Below, in pieces: positions 14,198 through 28,061 of a stretch of 33,693 nt of DNA; position 1 is the stretch's first letter, and each line of letters begins with the position of its first letter. The stretch lies in contig CAKZKH010000052.1 in the NCBI GenBank assembly GCA_937122485.1, positions 1-33,693 on the forward strand, in the 5' to 3' direction. The notes under the pieces were generated by a model. That model saw nothing but the letters and a program-made list of their open reading frames with translations, was not told where the DNA came from and ran no database searches. Position numbers and translations under genes: made by a program. Source of the DNA: an uncultured bacterium (GTDB taxonomy: Bacteria; Bipolaricaulota; Bipolaricaulia; Bipolaricaulales; Bipolaricaulaceae).

Positions 14198-15136
14198 ATG
14201 AGCCCGCGTTTGTTCGGCCTCTTGCTCGGGACCCTAGTCGGCGTGCTGGCGGGGGTGACGCTTCAAGCCACGGCCCAAGAGTTTGAGCTGAATGCGGAAA
14301 ACGGCTGGTGGCCAAGGGAGAACACCCCTGCGGGTCGGAAACCCTCGGGGAGAATAGCGGTCTCCATCGCCGGGGTGGGCAACTTCACGGTCGAGGCCTC
14401 CGCCGTGCGCACGGTGCGGCCCGACGTCTTCCAACAGGGCCACTTTTCCGTGTTTGACCTCCTGGTGCACCTGGGCGAGCGCGGGGCCATCCGCCTGACC
14501 TACCGGTTTGCCGAAGACATGGCCACCCACGTGATTGAGGACCTCAACGGGCAGAGCGGGTGGTGGTACGAAGCCCACTACGCCGGGGGAGGATTTGAAT
14601 CGAACGCGGTGCGCATGGACCTTTACCCGGTCAAGGACGGCACCCGGGTGCGTTTCTTCCGGGAGGATGCCAAGAGGCTCGCCGAGTTGTACGCGGCGTT
14701 CCGGGCCGAAGTGGCCCGCTGGCGGAACCACGGAAACCGTACGATCATTCCCCAAGTGCTGATCCGCGGGCCCAACTGGACCCTGACCTTCAAGGACGTG
14801 GAGGTGCGGCCCTTTGACTGGCGCGGGGACGTCCTCCAACCGGGCGTGGTCACCGCCCTGGACGTGCTGTTGAGCTTGGGCGAACAAGGACTGTTGGCAG
14901 CGCTCAAGCTCACCTGGTACCCCAAAATCGGCCGGGCCGATCCCATCGACAACTTTTTTGTGGAGCTCATCGCCGCAGGCGGGAAGTCCGCCCAAGCCGT
15001 GGGAAGCTGCGGGTTCATCTACGAGGTTGGGGAGTCCACCTTCCGCCAGTTCAAGGGCAACTTTGTGCACATGGCCTCGGATGTCCGGGTCATCCTGTGT
15101 CCGGAGTACATGGAGTGGTCCTGGAGGTGCTTGTGA
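14198..15136 (+). CDS. secreted protein with duplicated DUF4430-like domain
   Basis: The product is 312 residues. The N-terminus (MSPRLFGLLLGTLVGVLAG) is a signal peptide or anchor. The body holds two similar units. The first runs from about 60 (VRPDVFQQGHFSVFDLLVHL, then LGERGAIRLTYRF). The second runs from about 205 (VLQPGVVTALDVLLSLGEQG, then LLAALKLTWYP). Each ends in a Tyr/Trp-rich strand region with long aromatic loops (NGQSGWWYEAHYAGGGFESN). The pattern of a helix starting with VxDLL followed by beta strands and a G-W motif recalls DUF4430 domains, which are surface ligand-binding modules. That similarity is weak and from memory. It overlaps the DUF4405-like gene by 4 bases (GTGA), so the two are co-translated. 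Confidence 0.7.
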   Translation: MSPRLFGLLLGTLVGVLAGVTLQATAQEFELNAENGWWPRENTPAGRKPSGRIAVSIAGVGNFTVEASAVRTVRPDVFQQGHFSVFDLLVHLGERGAIRLTYRFAEDMATHVIEDLNGQSGWWYEAHYAGGGFESNAVRMDLYPVKDGTRVRFFREDAKRLAELYAAFRAEVARWRNHGNRTIIPQVLIRGPNWTLTFKDVEVRPFDWRGDVLQPGVVTALDVLLSLGEQGLLAALKLTWYPKIGRADPIDNFFVELIAAGGKSAQAVGSCGFIYEVGESTFRQFKGNFVHMASDVRVILCPEYMEWSWRCL

Positions 15137-15429
15137 GCGGGCGCACGCGGTTGGCTGTAAACACGGGCATCGACTGGCTTCTCATCCTCACCGGCCTTCC
15201 CTTGGCCGTTTCCTCGCTTCTCCTTTGGGTGGTCTTCCCCCGGGGGTTTTACGCCCACCGCCTGCTTTGGCGGGAAATCCACCTTTGGTCCGGACTGGCT
15301 TTTGGGGTGCTGAGTGCCCTCCACTTGGCCTTGCACCTTCCCCAGCTTTGGCGGTGCACCAAGGCCCTGGTATTGCCCTCTTCAAGGAGAGGTCCGCGTG
15401 ACTCGACGTGCTCGCCAACCGGGCTTTAG
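15133..15429 (+). CDS. small membrane protein, DUF4405-like
   Basis: The product is 98 residues. The GTG at 15133 overlaps the previous stop codon and has GGAGG at 15123-15127. Two membrane helices are clear (TGIDWLLILTGLPLAVSSLL and the segment around 52-70), with histidines at 50 (REIHLWSG), 64 and 68 (LHLALHLP). This resembles DUF4405 proteins, which look like half of a cytochrome b561-type bundle and may bind haem through such histidines. Haem binding is an inference. The last 32 bases overlap the acyltransferase gene, so the C-terminal 20 residues are probably a poorly constrained tail. Confidence 0.65.
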   Translation: MSGRTRLAVNTGIDWLLILTGLPLAVSSLLLWVVFPRGFYAHRLLWREIHLWSGLAFGVLSALHLALHLPQLWRCTKALVLPSSRRGPRDSTCSPTGL

Positions 15430-16459
15430 GCAGCGGTGGAAGGCGATCCTCCATCAGCTGCGCCAGGCCTATGAGTCGGGGGACGTGCGTTCCTTGCGCA
15501 CGCTGTGGTACCAGGGCCTTCGGGAGCCCGGGGTGGGGTGGGCTTTGCGTTTGTTCAACCGGATCTATCCCCTGCAAGCCATCTTGGACGTCGCTGACGA
15601 GCTCAACGGGAGGATGGCGGAGGAAGGGCTGGCCCGGGCCTCGCGTTGGCTTTTGGAGGAGAAAGTTGTGCACTGGAGGGCCGAGGTGCCGCCGGCCACG
15701 CAGGCCGTGTTGGCCCACCGGCCCGTGGTCATTTATGGCAACCACCCCAGTCTTCTTACCCTGTTTTTGGTTTCCTCCCAGGTGGACCGGCCGGATTTCC
15801 GCGTGGTGGCCGCCAGCTTCCTGGAACGCTTCTTGCCGGGCTTTGCCCCTTACGCTTATGCCGTGGAACTGCCGGTGAGGGACTGGTGGAGGCAATTTTG
15901 GGAGGGGGGGCTGCAGCGGCTGGTCGTGGTGTATTGGGTAACGCGGCTCCGGCCCGTGCCCCCGAAGACCCGGGCCAAGGAGCTCAACCGCATGACCTTG
16001 AGGAAAAGCATTGAGCATGTCCGCGACGGCGGGGCTTTGCTCATTGCCCCTCAGGGCTGGAGTCGAACCACGCGCCGGTGGTACCCCGGTCTGGGCATCA
16101 TCCTCCAGGACTTGGCCAAGAACTCGGGCCCCAACCCTTTGTACCTGGTGGCCTACCATGAGGAGAACTCCACCGATGCCCTGGTTCATGCCTTTCTGGC
16201 CGGGGGGGCCCGATCCCGCCGAGTTCTCGATCGGCTGAAGCGCGATCCCGTGAAGATCACGTTCTCCCAGCCCCGGGTCCTGGTGCCTGCCGAACTTCTG
16301 GAGGGCTCGCCGGCCGACCTGGTGGAAAGGCTCCGCCGGGACTACGAGGCGATGTTCTCCTGCGGGAGGGGGCCCGGCTATGGGCCTCTGAGGCTGAAGC
16401 GCAGGGTATATCCCTGCTCCGCTGCCACTGCCTCCAAGCCCCGCCGCAGCGCTCCGTAG
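15398..16459 (+). CDS. PlsC-like acyltransferase
   Basis: The product is 353 residues. The GTG at 15398 has AAGGAGAGG at 15384-15392. Residues 110-119 (VVIYGNHPSL) match the catalytic NHxS block of glycerolipid acyltransferases, but the usual Asp four residues after His is not evident (NHPSLLTLF). The later block GGALLIAPQGWS (211-222) sits where FPEGTRS normally lies. An N-terminal helical region of about 100 residues precedes the domain. A role in acylating a membrane lipid or lipid precursor is inferred; the divergent motifs mean the acceptor may be unusual. The final 82 bases overlap the minus-strand gene ending at 16378, and the last 27 residues look unconserved. Confidence 0.68.
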   Translation: MTRRARQPGFRQRWKAILHQLRQAYESGDVRSLRTLWYQGLREPGVGWALRLFNRIYPLQAILDVADELNGRMAEEGLARASRWLLEEKVVHWRAEVPPATQAVLAHRPVVIYGNHPSLLTLFLVSSQVDRPDFRVVAASFLERFLPGFAPYAYAVELPVRDWWRQFWEGGLQRLVVVYWVTRLRPVPPKTRAKELNRMTLRKSIEHVRDGGALLIAPQGWSRTTRRWYPGLGIILQDLAKNSGPNPLYLVAYHEENSTDALVHAFLAGGARSRRVLDRLKRDPVKITFSQPRVLVPAELLEGSPADLVERLRRDYEAMFSCGRGPGYGPLRLKRRVYPCSAATASKPRRSAP

Positions 16460-16785
16460 TCGAACTGAACGCTGTACCTCTTGCCAAGGAGGTTCAGTTC
16501 CTCTGCAAGCCGGCCCTCCCTTGGTCCTGGGGTCAGGGACCCCACCTCCACCCGCGTCCCCACCCCTGCCTCCGGCGACATTCCCAGTCCTGTCTCCACC
16601 AGCTGCTCGCTGTACAGGATCTCCCGAGCTTGGGCGTCCACCCTGAACCGGGCTCGGTACACAACCCGGCGTTTGCCCAACAGGACTCGGCGCTCGGCGA
16701 GAACCTTGGTGTACAGGATCTTGTCCCCTTCCTGTCTAAGCTCACCGCCCTGACCCTGCAAGAACTGCCTCAATGCCTCGATCAT
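16378..16785 (-). CDS. hypothetical protein, third gene of the PC4-like operon
   Basis: The product is 135 residues. The ATG at 16785 overlaps the upstream stop as ATGA and has a G-rich site (AGGGGGG) before it. There is no signal peptide or membrane segment. The N-terminus is helical (MIEALRQFLQGQGGEL). The middle is strand-rich with basic residues (LAERRVLLGKRRVVYRARF, then RVDAQAREILYSEQL). The C-terminus is helical (YGALRRGLEAVAAEQGYTL). No family is recognised. Co-translation with the VOC and PC4-like genes supports it being real. Its 3' end overlaps the acyltransferase gene by 82 bases. Confidence 0.7.
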   Translation of the reverse strand: MIEALRQFLQGQGGELRQEGDKILYTKVLAERRVLLGKRRVVYRARFRVDAQAREILYSEQLVETGLGMSPEAGVGTRVEVGSLTPGPREGRLAEELNLLGKRYSVQFDYGALRRGLEAVAAEQGYTLRFSLRGP

Positions 16786-17198
16786 GCGCACCCCCCTGTG
16801 CGGTGAAAGACCCTGCGCGCTTGAGGATTCAGGAACCGCTGGAATTCTAAGGTGTACCCCCCAGGATCGCGGCAGAAGAACCGTTCAATTTGGAGCTCAG
16901 AATTGATCTGGATAGGGGTGAGGCCTTGGGCTCCTGCCTGGCCAGCCCTTTCCCACCAGCCCGTCAAATCGTCGGTCACGATGGTGATCAGCACCGCACT
17001 TTTCTCCTGGGGGCGGTGGTAACCCCGTTGGCCGTCCACCAATCCAAGATAGCTTCCCTCCCCCAAGCGCAAGATCTTGGCCCAGCCCTGGTCCACCACC
17101 ACGGGGAAGCGCAGCCCCTCGGCCCAGAAGCGCATCGCGGCCTCAAGGTCGTGGTAGTACAGGTTGACCAGGGTGGCCGAAGGCTCAGCAGGGCTCAT
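16782..17198 (-). CDS. VOC (glyoxalase/dioxygenase) superfamily protein
   Basis: The product is 138 residues, one VOC module pair. The fold pattern is clear: ATLVNLYYHDLEAAMRFWAE, GWAKILRLGEGSYLGLVD, AVLITIVTDDLTGWWERA and FFCRDPGGYTLEFQRF. The family covers glyoxalase I, bleomycin resistance and extradiol dioxygenase proteins. The final strand keeps the C-terminal metal-ligand Glu (TLEF), but the first His position reads as Asn (LVNLYYHD), so metal binding is doubtful. The substrate is unknown. The ATG at 17198 overlaps the upstream stop as ATGA. Confidence 0.82.
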   Translation of the reverse strand: MSPAEPSATLVNLYYHDLEAAMRFWAEGLRFPVVVDQGWAKILRLGEGSYLGLVDGQRGYHRPQEKSAVLITIVTDDLTGWWERAGQAGAQGLTPIQINSELQIERFFCRDPGGYTLEFQRFLNPQARRVFHRTGGCA

Positions 17199-24181: not shown

Positions 24182-24913
24182 TCAACTTCGGGGCTTGCCC
24201 AGCCGGTCCGGATCAAACGCCTCGTCGGGCACAGGGACGAAGCCCACTTCCCGGATGAACAGAAAGGTCCGGTTGCCCTCGATCAATGCGTTCTCCACCA
24301 CCTGTTCCCGTACGTACACGTCCCCGTTGAAGTCCGCGTAGGCCGTGAAGCGGACCCGGTACAGGACCACGCCGGTGACCGCCAGGAGCCGCAACTCCAC
24401 CGGCCTGTTGGTGCGGGGATCCACAAGGACTACCACGGTCTGGAAGGCCACTCCAGGGTTGATGGCCCGCACTTCCAGCTCCACCTGGGGCTGGCCTTCG
24501 GCCGTTTCCGTCTCCCGGCGAGCGGTGATCCGGTAGTCCCGGGCCAGCCGTACCCCGGCGATTTGGGCCACTGCCGCATCCCCAAACGCCGCTTGCGCCC
24601 CGCTGGTCCGCAACGGGGTGGCCAGCTCCGGTTGCCAAAAGAACGTGCCCCGGGGGGTGATCAAGAACACCTGCCCGGCCAGCTCCGCCGGCTGGAGAAA
24701 CTCGATGCGCACGTAGCCCTCGCCCTGGATGTCCTTGAAGGCCAGCTTGAGCTCCGCTTCCTCCACCATCCCATCGCTCTCGGCCCGCACAAGCACCGTA
24801 AGCTGGCTGGCTTGAACGTCCAGGAACCGAACTCGATCGAGCTGTTCAAGGTCGAGCTGGGCTAGACCCACCAAACCCCAAGTGACCACAACGGCCAAAC
24901 CCCAAAGCCTCAT
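24182..24913 (-). CDS. LolA-like outer membrane lipoprotein-sorting protein (COG2834)
   Basis: The product is 243 residues. The N-terminus (MRLWGLAVVVTWGLVGLAQL) is a signal peptide. The body has the open beta-barrel pattern of LolA/LolB-like proteins: RIEFLQPAELAGQVFLI, then a Trp/Pro region (TPRGTFFWQPELATPL), LARDYRI, and paired strands ending in NRTFLFIREVGF. Members carry lipoproteins or other lipids between membranes. The ATG at 24913 has GAGGAGG upstream. It lies 14 bases after an FtsX-type permease of an ABC transporter, a common pairing for this family. This supports a lipid or lipoprotein export role and an outer membrane. Confidence 0.8.
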   Translation of the reverse strand: MRLWGLAVVVTWGLVGLAQLDLEQLDRVRFLDVQASQLTVLVRAESDGMVEEAELKLAFKDIQGEGYVRIEFLQPAELAGQVFLITPRGTFFWQPELATPLRTSGAQAAFGDAAVAQIAGVRLARDYRITARRETETAEGQPQVELEVRAINPGVAFQTVVVLVDPRTNRPVELRLLAVTGVVLYRVRFTAYADFNGDVYVREQVVENALIEGNRTFLFIREVGFVPVPDEAFDPDRLGKPRS

Positions 24914-24927
24914 GCAGTTCCTCCTCT

Positions 24928-26136
24928 TTACACAGCCCGCAGTGCCTCAGCCACGTTGAGGCGCGCGTTCTTCCACCCGGGATAAACACTGCTTGCGGCC
25001 GTGGCCAGCAGAGCAAGGAGAAAGGGAACGACCAACGTCTGAAGTCCCACAGCCACCCGAATGGGTTGGGGCATGGTGCCCCCGGGGGGGACGAAGGTCA
25101 ACCCTAGGGCGTTGAAAACCAAGCCCAAAAAGATACCGCCCATCACTCCAGCCAGCCCGCCCAGGAACCCCACAGCCATCCCTTCCAACACGAAGTTCCC
25201 AAACACCCGGCTCCAGGGGACCCCCAGGGCCCGCACCGTGGCCACCTCCCTCGTCCGTTCCAAAAAAGAGATCGTCAACACCTCCAGCACGCTGAAGAAC
25301 ACGAGGACGAAGATCGCCAGGGAGGTCAGCCCCGAGAAGGCGCGCCAAAACGTGCCGATGGACTCAAAGAACGGGCTTAGGTCTTGCCAGGTGCGGACAG
25401 AGAAGGACAACCCCGCGTCTTTGAGCCTCTGCTCCAATTGGGTTCGCACCTGGGGAGCCTCGGCAAGGTCCTCGATCCAAATGAGAACCCGCTCCACCCC
25501 CGTGGTGCGCACCAGGCGCTGGGCGAACCCCAGAGGAACCAACGCGAACCGCTCCTCGAGCTGGGCGTTGCTCAGTCGAAGCGTGCCCACCACGGTCACG
25601 GTGGAGGCGTTGAGGGTGCCGTTCACAGTGCCTGCCGCCACGTTGACCGTGTCCCCCGGGCGCAAGTTGAGCTTTCCGGCCAACCGCTCCCCCAGCACGA
25701 CTTCCCGCGCCTCGCGTTCCGCCAAGGGCCGGCCAGCCACGAGCATACAGACGTAATCGGCCATGCAGTCCTCGGGGACCACCCCCCGGGCCAGGAGCAG
25801 CGTGCTGCCCTTCTCGTTTCCGATGAGCCCCGCGAAGTTGAGCTGGGGGCTTATCCGACTCCCTTCCACGGTGCGGACAAGCCCCACCACCTTGTCCAGG
25901 TCGCTTGGGGAAATCAGGGCCTCCAATCCCGAGGCCCGCCCCTCCAGAACCCGGGCATCCCCCACCTGAAGGGCCCCGAGCTCGAGGGCCAGGGACCGCT
26001 CGGTGGACCGCAACGCCTCGGCCACGAACCCCAGCACAAACGAAAGGAGCGTAACCCCCACACCGATCACGAGCAGACTGAACAGCGTGCGCCGCCGATT
26101 GCGAAACACGTTGCGCAAAGCCAGTTTGAGGTTCAT
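24928..26136 (-). CDS. FtsX-family ABC permease, LolC/E-like (second copy)
   Basis: The product is 402 residues with four membrane helices: one at the N-terminus (RRTLFSLLVIGVGVTLLSFV) and three near the C-terminus. Between helices 1 and 2 lies a periplasmic domain of about 220 residues. The coupling region reads FLERTREVATVRALGVPWSR, the usual FtsX/MacB signature. It presumably pairs with the permease encoded upstream and the ATPase to extract lipoproteins from the inner membrane. The ATG at 26136 has GAGGA 7 bases after the preceding stop. The two permeases share layout and signature (CTDs LERTREV...RALG) and probably arose by duplication. Confidence 0.88.
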   Translation of the reverse strand: MNLKLALRNVFRNRRRTLFSLLVIGVGVTLLSFVLGFVAEALRSTERSLALELGALQVGDARVLEGRASGLEALISPSDLDKVVGLVRTVEGSRISPQLNFAGLIGNEKGSTLLLARGVVPEDCMADYVCMLVAGRPLAEREAREVVLGERLAGKLNLRPGDTVNVAAGTVNGTLNASTVTVVGTLRLSNAQLEERFALVPLGFAQRLVRTTGVERVLIWIEDLAEAPQVRTQLEQRLKDAGLSFSVRTWQDLSPFFESIGTFWRAFSGLTSLAIFVLVFFSVLEVLTISFLERTREVATVRALGVPWSRVFGNFVLEGMAVGFLGGLAGVMGGIFLGLVFNALGLTFVPPGGTMPQPIRVAVGLQTLVVPFLLALLATAASSVYPGWKNARLNVAEALRAV

Positions 26137-26143
26137 AGGGTCC

Positions 26144-27352
26144 TCACACCGTGCGCAACGCTTCCACCACCGACAAGCGGGCCATCTGCCCCGCAGGGAG
26201 AAGGGCCGACACCACGGTGGAAAGGAGGCTCACCAACAAGGGAACCCCAAAGACGAGAGGGGTGAAGTCCACCCCCAAGGTCACCGCTTGAACTGTCCCC
26301 GGGGGTCGCCAGGGGATCGCGGCCGCGTTGAACGCCAAAGAAAACGCAACACCCAGCAACAGGCCCACCAGTCCTCCAACCAAGCCCAGCCCTGCGCCCT
26401 CGAGGAGGAAGAGGCGGAACACCTCCTGCCCCAGCGTGCCCAAGGCTCTCAGCGTCCCCACCTCCCGCGTCCGCTCCAGGAAAGAAAGCGTCAGCACCTG
26501 GAGGACAATGAAGAAGACCAAGACGAATACCGCGGCGATGAGAAAACCAAACAGGAGGTCGAAGAAGCTCGCCAGCTGACGGTAGAACGGGGACAGAACG
26601 TCCCAGGTGCGCGCCTCCAGGGTGAAACCCTGGGCGGGCAGACCTCGGTCCAGCTTGCGGGCCGTGCCCCAGGTCTGCCGAAGAGAACGCAAGCCCAGCA
26701 CCACCCGGTCCACCCCCCTCGTGTTCAACAGCGTTTGGGCCAGGGAAAGAGGGACAAACACCTGCGATCGCTCGACCTCCGCGGAGGAGAACCGATAAAT
26801 CCCAACCACCTCGGCGGGGAGGACGTTGAGCGCCCCGGCGGCGGTGGTGGCCGTGAGGTTCACGAAGTCCCCGGGCCTGAGCCCCAGTTCCTCAGCCAGG
26901 ACCTGGCCCACAAGGACAGCCCCTAGATCGCTGGAGCGGAGGCCCCGCCCGCCCACCACCAGGCCGTTGTAGTCCAACACCGGGTTCTCAGGGACGACCC
27001 CCAACCCCCGCACCGTTGCCGTCCTCCGGCGAAAGGTTAGCAAGGAGGAAAACCCCAATTGAACCGTGGAGCCTCGCACCTCAGGGAACTGGGCAACCCA
27101 CCGGGTCAATAGCTCTTGGTCCTCCGGCCCGATGAGGTAACCCAACCCCTCGGAGTCGCCCTCGAACAGGGCTCGATCGGCGATCTGGATGTTGCCGTAC
27201 TGCTGGACCGTCGTTTGTTGAATCAGGGCTTTGGAGCGCTCCACAAACCCCAGGACCACCAGGGACAGGGAGCACCCCAAGCTGACGATGGCCAAAGCCA
27301 ACAAGGTCCGGCGCCGGTTGCGGCGCAGGTTACGCAGGGCGATCCGCCACAT
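26144..27352 (-). CDS. FtsX-family ABC permease, LolC/E-like (first copy)
   Basis: The product is 402 residues with the same plan as the next gene: an N-terminal helix (RRTLLALAIVSLGCSLSLVV), a large outer domain, and three C-terminal helices with FLERTREVGTLRALGTLGQE. The ATG at 27352 has GGAGAGG just before it and is preferred to an upstream in-frame start at 27403. It overlaps the ATPase gene by 23 bases. The closing sequence LSVVEALRTV resembles LNVAEALRAV of the second permease, so the two proteins are probably paralogues acting as a heterodimer. Confidence 0.88.
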   Translation of the reverse strand: MWRIALRNLRRNRRRTLLALAIVSLGCSLSLVVLGFVERSKALIQQTTVQQYGNIQIADRALFEGDSEGLGYLIGPEDQELLTRWVAQFPEVRGSTVQLGFSSLLTFRRRTATVRGLGVVPENPVLDYNGLVVGGRGLRSSDLGAVLVGQVLAEELGLRPGDFVNLTATTAAGALNVLPAEVVGIYRFSSAEVERSQVFVPLSLAQTLLNTRGVDRVVLGLRSLRQTWGTARKLDRGLPAQGFTLEARTWDVLSPFYRQLASFFDLLFGFLIAAVFVLVFFIVLQVLTLSFLERTREVGTLRALGTLGQEVFRLFLLEGAGLGLVGGLVGLLLGVAFSLAFNAAAIPWRPPGTVQAVTLGVDFTPLVFGVPLLVSLLSTVVSALLPAGQMARLSVVEALRTV

Positions 27353-28061
27353 ACCTCTCCCCTTGGATCTTTCCGTCGCGGATGTCCAGCACCCGCTGGG
27401 CATAGGGCGGGACCGCCGGGTCGTGGGTGACCACCACGAACGTGACGCAATGCTCTCCGTTGAGGTTTTGGAGCAGCCCCATGATCTGCTTGCCGGTCGT
27501 GGAGTCGAGGTTGGCCGTGGGTTCGTCGGCCAGGACCACCCGGGGCTGCGTCACCAGGGCCCGGGCGATAGCTACCCGCTGACGTTGCCCTCCCGAAAGC
27601 TCATCGGGCCGGCGGCGCCCCAACCCATCGAGGCCCACCTCCTCCAACAACGAACGTACCCGCTGCTCCCGCTCCTGGCGGCTCAAGTTGAGAAGGAGCA
27701 AGGGGTACTCCACGTTCTCTGCGGCGGTGAGCACGGGGATGAGGTTGAACGTCTGGAAAACCAGACCGATCCTTTGTCTCCTCAGAAAAGCCAAATCCCG
27801 CTCCGAGAGCTTGCTTGTGGGCTTGCCTTCGAACAGAACCTCCCCTTGACTGGGGCGGTCGATGAGGGCCAGCAAGTTCAGCAACGTGGTCTTGCCGCTC
27901 CCAGAAGGACCGTTGATGACCACAAAGTCCCCTTGGGTGGACAGGAAGTCCACCTCATCCAGGGCCTTCACCTTCTCTTTGCCCAGGGCGTAGATCTTGG
28001 AGACCTTTTGAGCTTGAAGGACCGGGTCCCCTCGGGCGTAGCAGAAACCTTGACCGTTCAT
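27330..28061 (-). CDS. ABC transporter ATPase, LolD/MacB type
   Basis: The product is 243 residues. Walker A is GPSGSGKTTLLN, the Q-loop VFQTFNLIPVLTA, the signature LSGGQRQRVAIARAL, Walker B VVLADEPTANLDS and the switch His VVTHDP. The LIPVLTAAENVEYPLLL stretch is typical of the LolD/MacB group. It powers the two FtsX-type permeases encoded after it. The ATG at 28061 has GGAAGG 5 bases upstream. A C-terminal tail beyond LDIRDGKI is short and overlaps the next gene. It heads the long minus-strand unit running to 18577. Confidence 0.94.
   Translation of the reverse strand: MNGQGFCYARGDPVLQAQKVSKIYALGKEKVKALDEVDFLSTQGDFVVINGPSGSGKTTLLNLLALIDRPSQGEVLFEGKPTSKLSERDLAFLRRQRIGLVFQTFNLIPVLTAAENVEYPLLLLNLSRQEREQRVRSLLEEVGLDGLGRRRPDELSGGQRQRVAIARALVTQPRVVLADEPTANLDSTTGKQIMGLLQNLNGEHCVTFVVVTHDPAVPPYAQRVLDIRDGKIQGERYVADRPA

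Follow-up and report, generated by a model that had tools for sequence, protein, structure and literature searches.

A recurrent gene pair of a secreted tandem transcobalamin-like protein and a mini DUF4405 membrane protein as a possible electron-transfer module in Bipolaricaulota

Three overlapping genes, specifying an exported protein, a very small membrane protein and an acyltransferase-like protein, lie together in the genome of an uncultured member of the Bipolaricaulota, which raises the question of whether they form a functional unit and what such a unit would do. The stretch analysed, referred to here as the window, is contig CAKZKH010000052.1 (C52) at its full length of 33,693 nucleotides, from a source genome of 1.54 Mb and 96.27% completeness. 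The nearest named relatives of the window gene 1 are from Bipolaricaulota/Acetothermia. An earlier note on this DNA had described three genes overlapping by 4 bases (gene 1/gene 2) and 32 bases (gene 2/gene 3), and the open reading frames listed in Table 1 bear this out; the alignment of gene 3 with its closest homologues runs from residue 1. A queuine tRNA-ribosyltransferase gene is the upstream neighbour of gene 1, and the next reading frame downstream, at 16378–16791, lies on the opposite strand, runs into the end of gene 3 and was without a Pfam match.

Table 1. Features of the three-gene locus, in window coordinates.
Feature	Position	Strand	Description	Basis
Gene 1	14198..15136	+	312-aa secreted protein, tandem transcobalamin-beta-like beta-grasp, unnamed family	Reading frame, homologues, structure model
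Gene 1, unit 1	14339..14677	+	Residues 48–160, motifs GWWY and RMDxYPVKD	VIA-align, alignment
Gene 1, unit 2	14735..15133	+	Residues 180–312, with R209, D211, C271, H291, W309 and C311	hhalign, model, alignment
Gene 2	15133..15429	+	98-aa membrane protein, DUF4405, predicted b-haem cytochrome half	PF14358 match, dN < dS
H50 codon, gene 2	15280..15282	+	Predicted haem ligand	H-x13-H in 8/8 partner proteins
H64 codon, gene 2	15322..15324	+	Predicted haem ligand	H-x13-H in 8/8 partner proteins
Gene 3	15398..16459	+	353 aa, LPLAT-like family, probably separate function	17-row alignment, weak PF01553 matches in relatives
Altered HX4D motif, gene 3	15743..15760	+	H116 to T121	Both invariant in 17 rows

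Gene 1 carries a signal peptide at about residues 1–26, as judged by eye, and matched no Pfam or NCBIfam family at E-values up to 5. Among 21 relatives scanned, no family was common to two, and searching PDB sequences with a profile of gene 1 returned nothing up to E 10. Matches were obtained in 13 of 60 near genomes (counting its own and two short ones) and, by profile search, in 20 of 100 phylum genomes, its own included and one (G005) being a short partial match. An alignment-based search of contigs yielded 23 gene 1 loci, where a single-protein query of the same contigs yielded none; the labels of the matches, which are those of the depositors, include Myxococcota and Bathyarchaeota.

The structure model of gene 1 (mean pLDDT 89.4, pTM 0.86) comprises two beta-grasp units with the same order of strands and helix. 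Comparison of unit 1 with unit 2 by hhalign gave a probability of 96.9% and an E-value of 1.6e-10, centred on R-x-D-...-G-...-D-x-L-x-x-L, and the internal duplication noticed earlier is thus upheld by both sequence comparison and model. With VIA-align, unit 1 reached Z-scores of 9.0–10.5 against the beta-domains of transcobalamin, haptocorrin and intrinsic factor and against bacterial 3u7z, followed by the next match at 6.8; fold families missing from the VIA-align list were not counted as evidence. Foldseek alone ranked transcobalamin first (E 1.2e-3, with nothing below 0.001). The model further places a hairpin (strands 100–105 and 110–116, identified by strand order only) after helix 85–94 and before strand 122–127, and a hairpin after the helix defines the transcobalamin-like clade in the sections of PMC1796856 that treat it, where ligand binding is proposed. 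Over 21 aligned rows, T110, W123, Y124, R139, D141, P144 and K146 of unit 1 and R209, D211 and W309 of unit 2 are invariant, with C271 and H291 conserved in at least 90%; in a 10-row alignment, C271, W309 and C311 are invariant. The label "DUF4430-like" in the earlier note agrees with the fold, but the DUF4430 profile matched none of the 21 family members and none of the 100 phylum genomes, and gene 1 is therefore named transcobalamin-like by fold and not assigned to DUF4430. In its model, this secreted protein has two copies of a fold that binds vitamin B12 in animals.

Gene 2 had been called DUF4405-like, and this identification held, with 43.2 bits against PF14358 at a cut-off of 26.7 (E 5.7e-11); matches above the cut-off were also found in L055, L064 and L081. 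DUF4405 is assigned to the cytochrome b family in the pertinent part of PMC5898192, and the parts of PMC11334425 on these proteins describe purification with haem b for one DUF4405 protein as well as for its relative FezC, the latter modelled as a homodimer. The 98 residues of gene 2 contain two hydrophobic segments, as seen by eye, rather than the six transmembrane helices in one chain of a six-helix, four-His DUF4405 cytochrome, so that a cytochrome built from it would require a homodimer. Of the three His that had been taken as conserved, two are: H50 and H64 are kept in all six bacterial partners of gene 1, H68 is replaced by N or R in some of them, and H42 is variable. The H-x13-H pattern is common to these six and to the two archaea-labelled partners. 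Neither archaea-labelled protein matched DUF4405 at E up to 1, and Ni_hydr_CYTB was matched at E 0.085 and 0.54; homology to gene 2 is not claimed for them, as the alignment does not superpose the His and the likeness relies on His spacing.

The small gene also seems to be under purifying selection, in line with what had been asked of it. By the NG86 method, dN was lower than dS in all eight computable pairs of 15 (two had no dS and five were lost to an N), for example 0.213 and 1.105 for L065–L081 and 0.532 and 1.471 for the window–L064, with some pairs near saturation. A counter-signal comes from L064: in three of the five pairs with this sequence, first codon positions are not more conserved than third positions (0.46 and 0.48 for the window, 0.44 and 0.51 for L065, 0.41 and 0.45 for L109), whereas second positions in these pairs are better conserved, at 0.62 to 0.70.

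Whether the genes belong together was assessed from their recurrence. DUF4405 was matched at E up to 0.001 in 28 of the 100 phylum genomes, and six genomes have both it and gene 1 (G000, G009, G017, G077, G079 and G094); in each of these, DUF4405 was matched once, at a gene adjoining gene 1. The bacterial pair loci are the window, L064, L065, L081, L109 and L111, from six genera, and their gene 1 proteins constitute one tree group with support of 95/92. At two of three archaea-labelled loci, a membrane protein with H-x13-H is encoded directly upstream of gene 1, with a 4-base overlap in L077. The 4-base overlap of gene 1 and gene 2 is seen again in L064 and L081 and is absent in L065, L109 and L111; gene starts in all genomes other than that of the window are approximate, as genes there were called with a simple ORF picker, which also missed a DUF4405 gene in L116. 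Gene 3 relatives, by comparison, adjoined gene 1 nowhere outside the window, either in the genomes searched or in the gene 1 neighbourhoods. The pair of gene 1 and gene 2 is thus conserved and the trio is not a unit, and by the conservation check that the earlier note proposed only the pair survives. No description of the pair was found in open-licence PMC papers on DUF4430, DUF4405, both kinds together, Bipolaricaulota and cytochrome b, Acetothermia and heme, or heme auxotrophy in uncultivated microbes; in a table of PMC12727194, DUF4405 and transcobalamin-like kinds are both named, in separate rows. As a side observation, an aldehyde ferredoxin oxidoreductase gene lies near the pair on the other strand in two loci (L081:9861–11609 and L111:3419–5368), together with a small gene that is MoaD-like by eye, likewise on the other strand.

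Gene 3 belongs to a family present in 19 of 60 genomes, its own included, several of which have more than one copy. PlsC enzymes carry an HX4D catalytic motif, in place of which gene 3 has NHPSLLT, with HX4T invariant in the 17 aligned rows. The changed motif reported earlier is therefore real. PF01553 gave weak matches in seven of the 17 family members (best E 0.0015), the window protein has no Pfam match and does not reach the PF01553 cut-off, and no PDB match fell below E 0.12, the value for the best one, a plastid glycerol-3-phosphate acyltransferase. The model of gene 3 alone, at a pLDDT of 39.6, was set aside. In the single-contig genome G004, the nearest gene 3 relative is about 56 kb from gene 1; a weak gene 3 match upstream of gene 1 in L071 was identified as an MFS transporter and rejected. 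That all three genes constitute one lipid-modifying or envelope module, to which the overlaps of 4 and 32 bases would point, is extremely improbable, given that no gene 3 relative adjoined gene 1 outside the window in the genomes searched. Gene 3 is probably a neighbour with a separate function and no conserved link to the pair, and its 32-base overlap may reflect shared transcription in this species. The earlier suggestion of a membrane redox or lipid-modifying module accordingly loses its lipid half, the gene 3 family being separate and often multi-copy, and keeps its redox half through the recurrent DUF4405 pair, the purifying selection that seems to act on gene 2 and the haem b of other DUF4405 proteins.

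For genes 1 and 2, the reading that we favour, at a probability of about 0.42, is a minimal transmembrane electron-transfer pair, in which a b-type cytochrome would serve a secreted ligand- or metal-binding protein. Gene 2 would be a half-size b-type cytochrome with H50 and H64 on one helix; as these lie fourteen residues apart, a pair of haems, stacked across the membrane, could be bound by two copies of gene 2 together. Gene 1 would be exported and would hold a ligand or metal in its tandem units, and on contact between the two proteins this ligand would take electrons from the cytochrome or give them to it. The pair would probably pass electrons to an acceptor outside the cell. Elsewhere in the phylum, a small DUF4405 gene adjoins genes for a membrane 4Fe-4S protein and a cupin (L115:1372–2896 and L117:297–1851), which is perhaps another small redox module and agrees with a redox role for such proteins; L118 has no such arrangement near its DUF4405 gene.

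What speaks most against the cytochrome reading, and most invites one of haem capture, is that genes for haem synthesis were not found. Neither HemB nor ferrochelatase was matched in the six pair genomes (completeness 69 to 96%), so that haem would be imported or gene 2 would work without it; any haem in these genomes is probably scavenged. HemB was matched in none of the 20 gene 1 genomes and in six of the 80 others (Fisher p 0.60), and as it is missing in 94 of the 100 phylum genomes, its absence is not peculiar to gene 1 carriers. We also observe that HemB is found in six of the 100 genomes while DUF4405 is found in 28, and members of this phylum may commonly use haem that they do not make. 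Flavinylation-linked electron transfer was rejected, since ApbE was matched in none of the six pair genomes.

These findings bear on two further readings. In one, gene 2 is a mere membrane anchor or partner of gene 1 and binds no haem, as the lack of matches to HemB and ferrochelatase in the pair genomes and to cytochrome bd in any of the 20 gene 1 genomes would allow. We consider this quite unlikely, because counterparts of H50 and H64 persist in all eight partners at 28–50% identity to gene 2 (five measured) and haem b was demonstrated in another DUF4405 protein (PMC11334425, in the part cited above). In the other, the cell is a haem auxotroph in which gene 1 binds external haem or another tetrapyrrole and passes it to the His pair of gene 2, its sister clade doing the same with a transporter. 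The fold of a tetrapyrrole binder and a His pair kept where haem synthesis was not found, along with the HemB and ferrochelatase counts, suit this reading, which we nonetheless regard as unlikely, both because the HemB absence is general to the phylum and because the permease of the sister clade resembles MacB and LolCDE. MacB and LolCDE are export or mechanotransmission machines and are not known to act as importers.

That sister clade consists of 15 gene 1 relatives (L066–L076, L079, L110, L112 and L056; for example L075:886–4633) that adjoin a gene for the MacB-like permease and fall into one tree group with support of 100/99. Of the 15 loci, 13 also encode a LolD-like ATPase together with a secreted OB-fold protein, and ten an Rrf2 regulator, some contigs ending early. 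The permease has an invariant Cys in a GCPY motif (15/15), the OB-fold protein an invariant CxxxC (13/13), and Rrf2 three invariant Cys in the 11 aligned proteins, which include those of L082 and L085 from outside the 15. All 15 gene 1 proteins of this clade contain an extra [PA]HxH loop (13 PHxH, two AHxH), which none of 12 other gene 1 proteins has, L085 having PYDH near that place. Omitted from the tree and from this count were L082 and L086 (partial, with Rrf2 upstream), L113 and L114 (identical to loci L066 and L070) and short duplicate loci. Three genomes (G077, G079 and G094) have one gene 1 copy of each kind. In the window itself, genes for a LolA-like protein, two MacB/FtsX permeases and an ABC ATPase follow in series at 24182–28061; this cluster resembles a Lol-type lipoprotein system and is apparently distinct from the gene 1-linked transporter.

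The ABC-linked cluster has the look of an envelope system for metals or redox chemistry that has yet to be described. This prompts a reading of metal handling, in which the HxH loop, the CxxxC and the permease Cys would serve to trap copper or iron, with reduction of the metal in the pair version. The invariant residues just listed, those of Rrf2 among them, argue for it, as do the title of 3u7z (putative metal-binding protein) and the link of FezC to iron in ferrosomes made in the FezC sections of PMC11334425. It is unlikely all the same, given that all six pair proteins are devoid of the HxH loop and that the conserved Cys may form disulfides. At four gene 1 loci (L080, L083, L084 and L085), neither a cytochrome nor an ABC permease directly adjoins; in L083 a larger ABC permease is encoded further downstream, as are two ATPases, and L085, a Myxococcota locus, has Rrf2 upstream. 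With these and the 15 relatives that have a permease instead, redox partnering is not universal to the family. A broader and doubtful proposal is that of a new class of envelope system, in which an ancestral tetrapyrrole or metal binder has taken two unrelated partners, a homodimeric mini-cytochrome or a MacB-type ABC transporter, in organisms unable to make haem.

The fold also calls for a comparison with vitamin B12 scavenging, which the SLBB sections of PMC1796856 propose for SLBB proteins that are secreted and have CbiO/CbiQ genes nearby. This is very unlikely for gene 1: the partners seen are not CbiO/CbiQ, its own genome has no match to PF02310 (B12-binding), and no cobalamin riboswitch was found in the window or in 20 searched neighbourhoods. 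PF02310 is missing in 13 of 20 carriers and in 36 of 80 others, a difference that is not significant (Fisher p 0.14).

The pair brings together two kinds of orphan protein, the transcobalamin-like domains of bacteria and the mini DUF4405 cytochromes, and at about 410 residues together it is small enough to test what is held by relatives of the B12-binding domain in bacteria. Haem in gene 2, if real, would mean that haem chemistry takes place in a lineage in which genes for haem synthesis were rarely found. The switch of partner with loss or gain of the HxH loop is a natural experiment on the residues that suit each partner, and the new class of envelope system, if true, would give haem auxotrophs a way to capture a redox cofactor from outside and put it to use.

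Among known systems, gene 3 is closest to PlsC/LPLAT acyltransferases (PF01553), with which we take its NH-x-S motif and a later xPxG motif to agree; it differs in having HX4T instead of HX4D and in the lack of a Pfam match for the window protein. In MsrP–MsrQ, a periplasmic protein is served by a membrane b-haem protein, as would be the case in the proposed pair, but gene 1 has no molybdopterin domain in Pfam; MsrQ is discussed in the cytochrome sections of PMC11334425. Gene 1 is similar to the transcobalamin-like SLBB clade, as presented in the corresponding part of Burroughs et al. 2007 (PMC1796856), in its beta-grasp with extra strands after the helix, its export and the nearby ABC genes of some lineages. 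It departs from that clade in having two units per chain and no DUF4430 profile match, and in being partnered by a small cytochrome or a MacB-like ABC transporter, not by CbiO/CbiQ or an alpha/alpha toroid. Gene 2, finally, has 98 residues where the relevant part of PMC11334425 describes a six-helix, four-His DUF4405 protein, the six pair genomes have no ApbE match, and its partner is SLBB-like, not a flavoprotein or a ferrosome; it shares with DUF4405/FezC cytochromes the DUF4405 match and the paired His, and the haem sites of FezC were likewise predicted to arise through homodimerisation.
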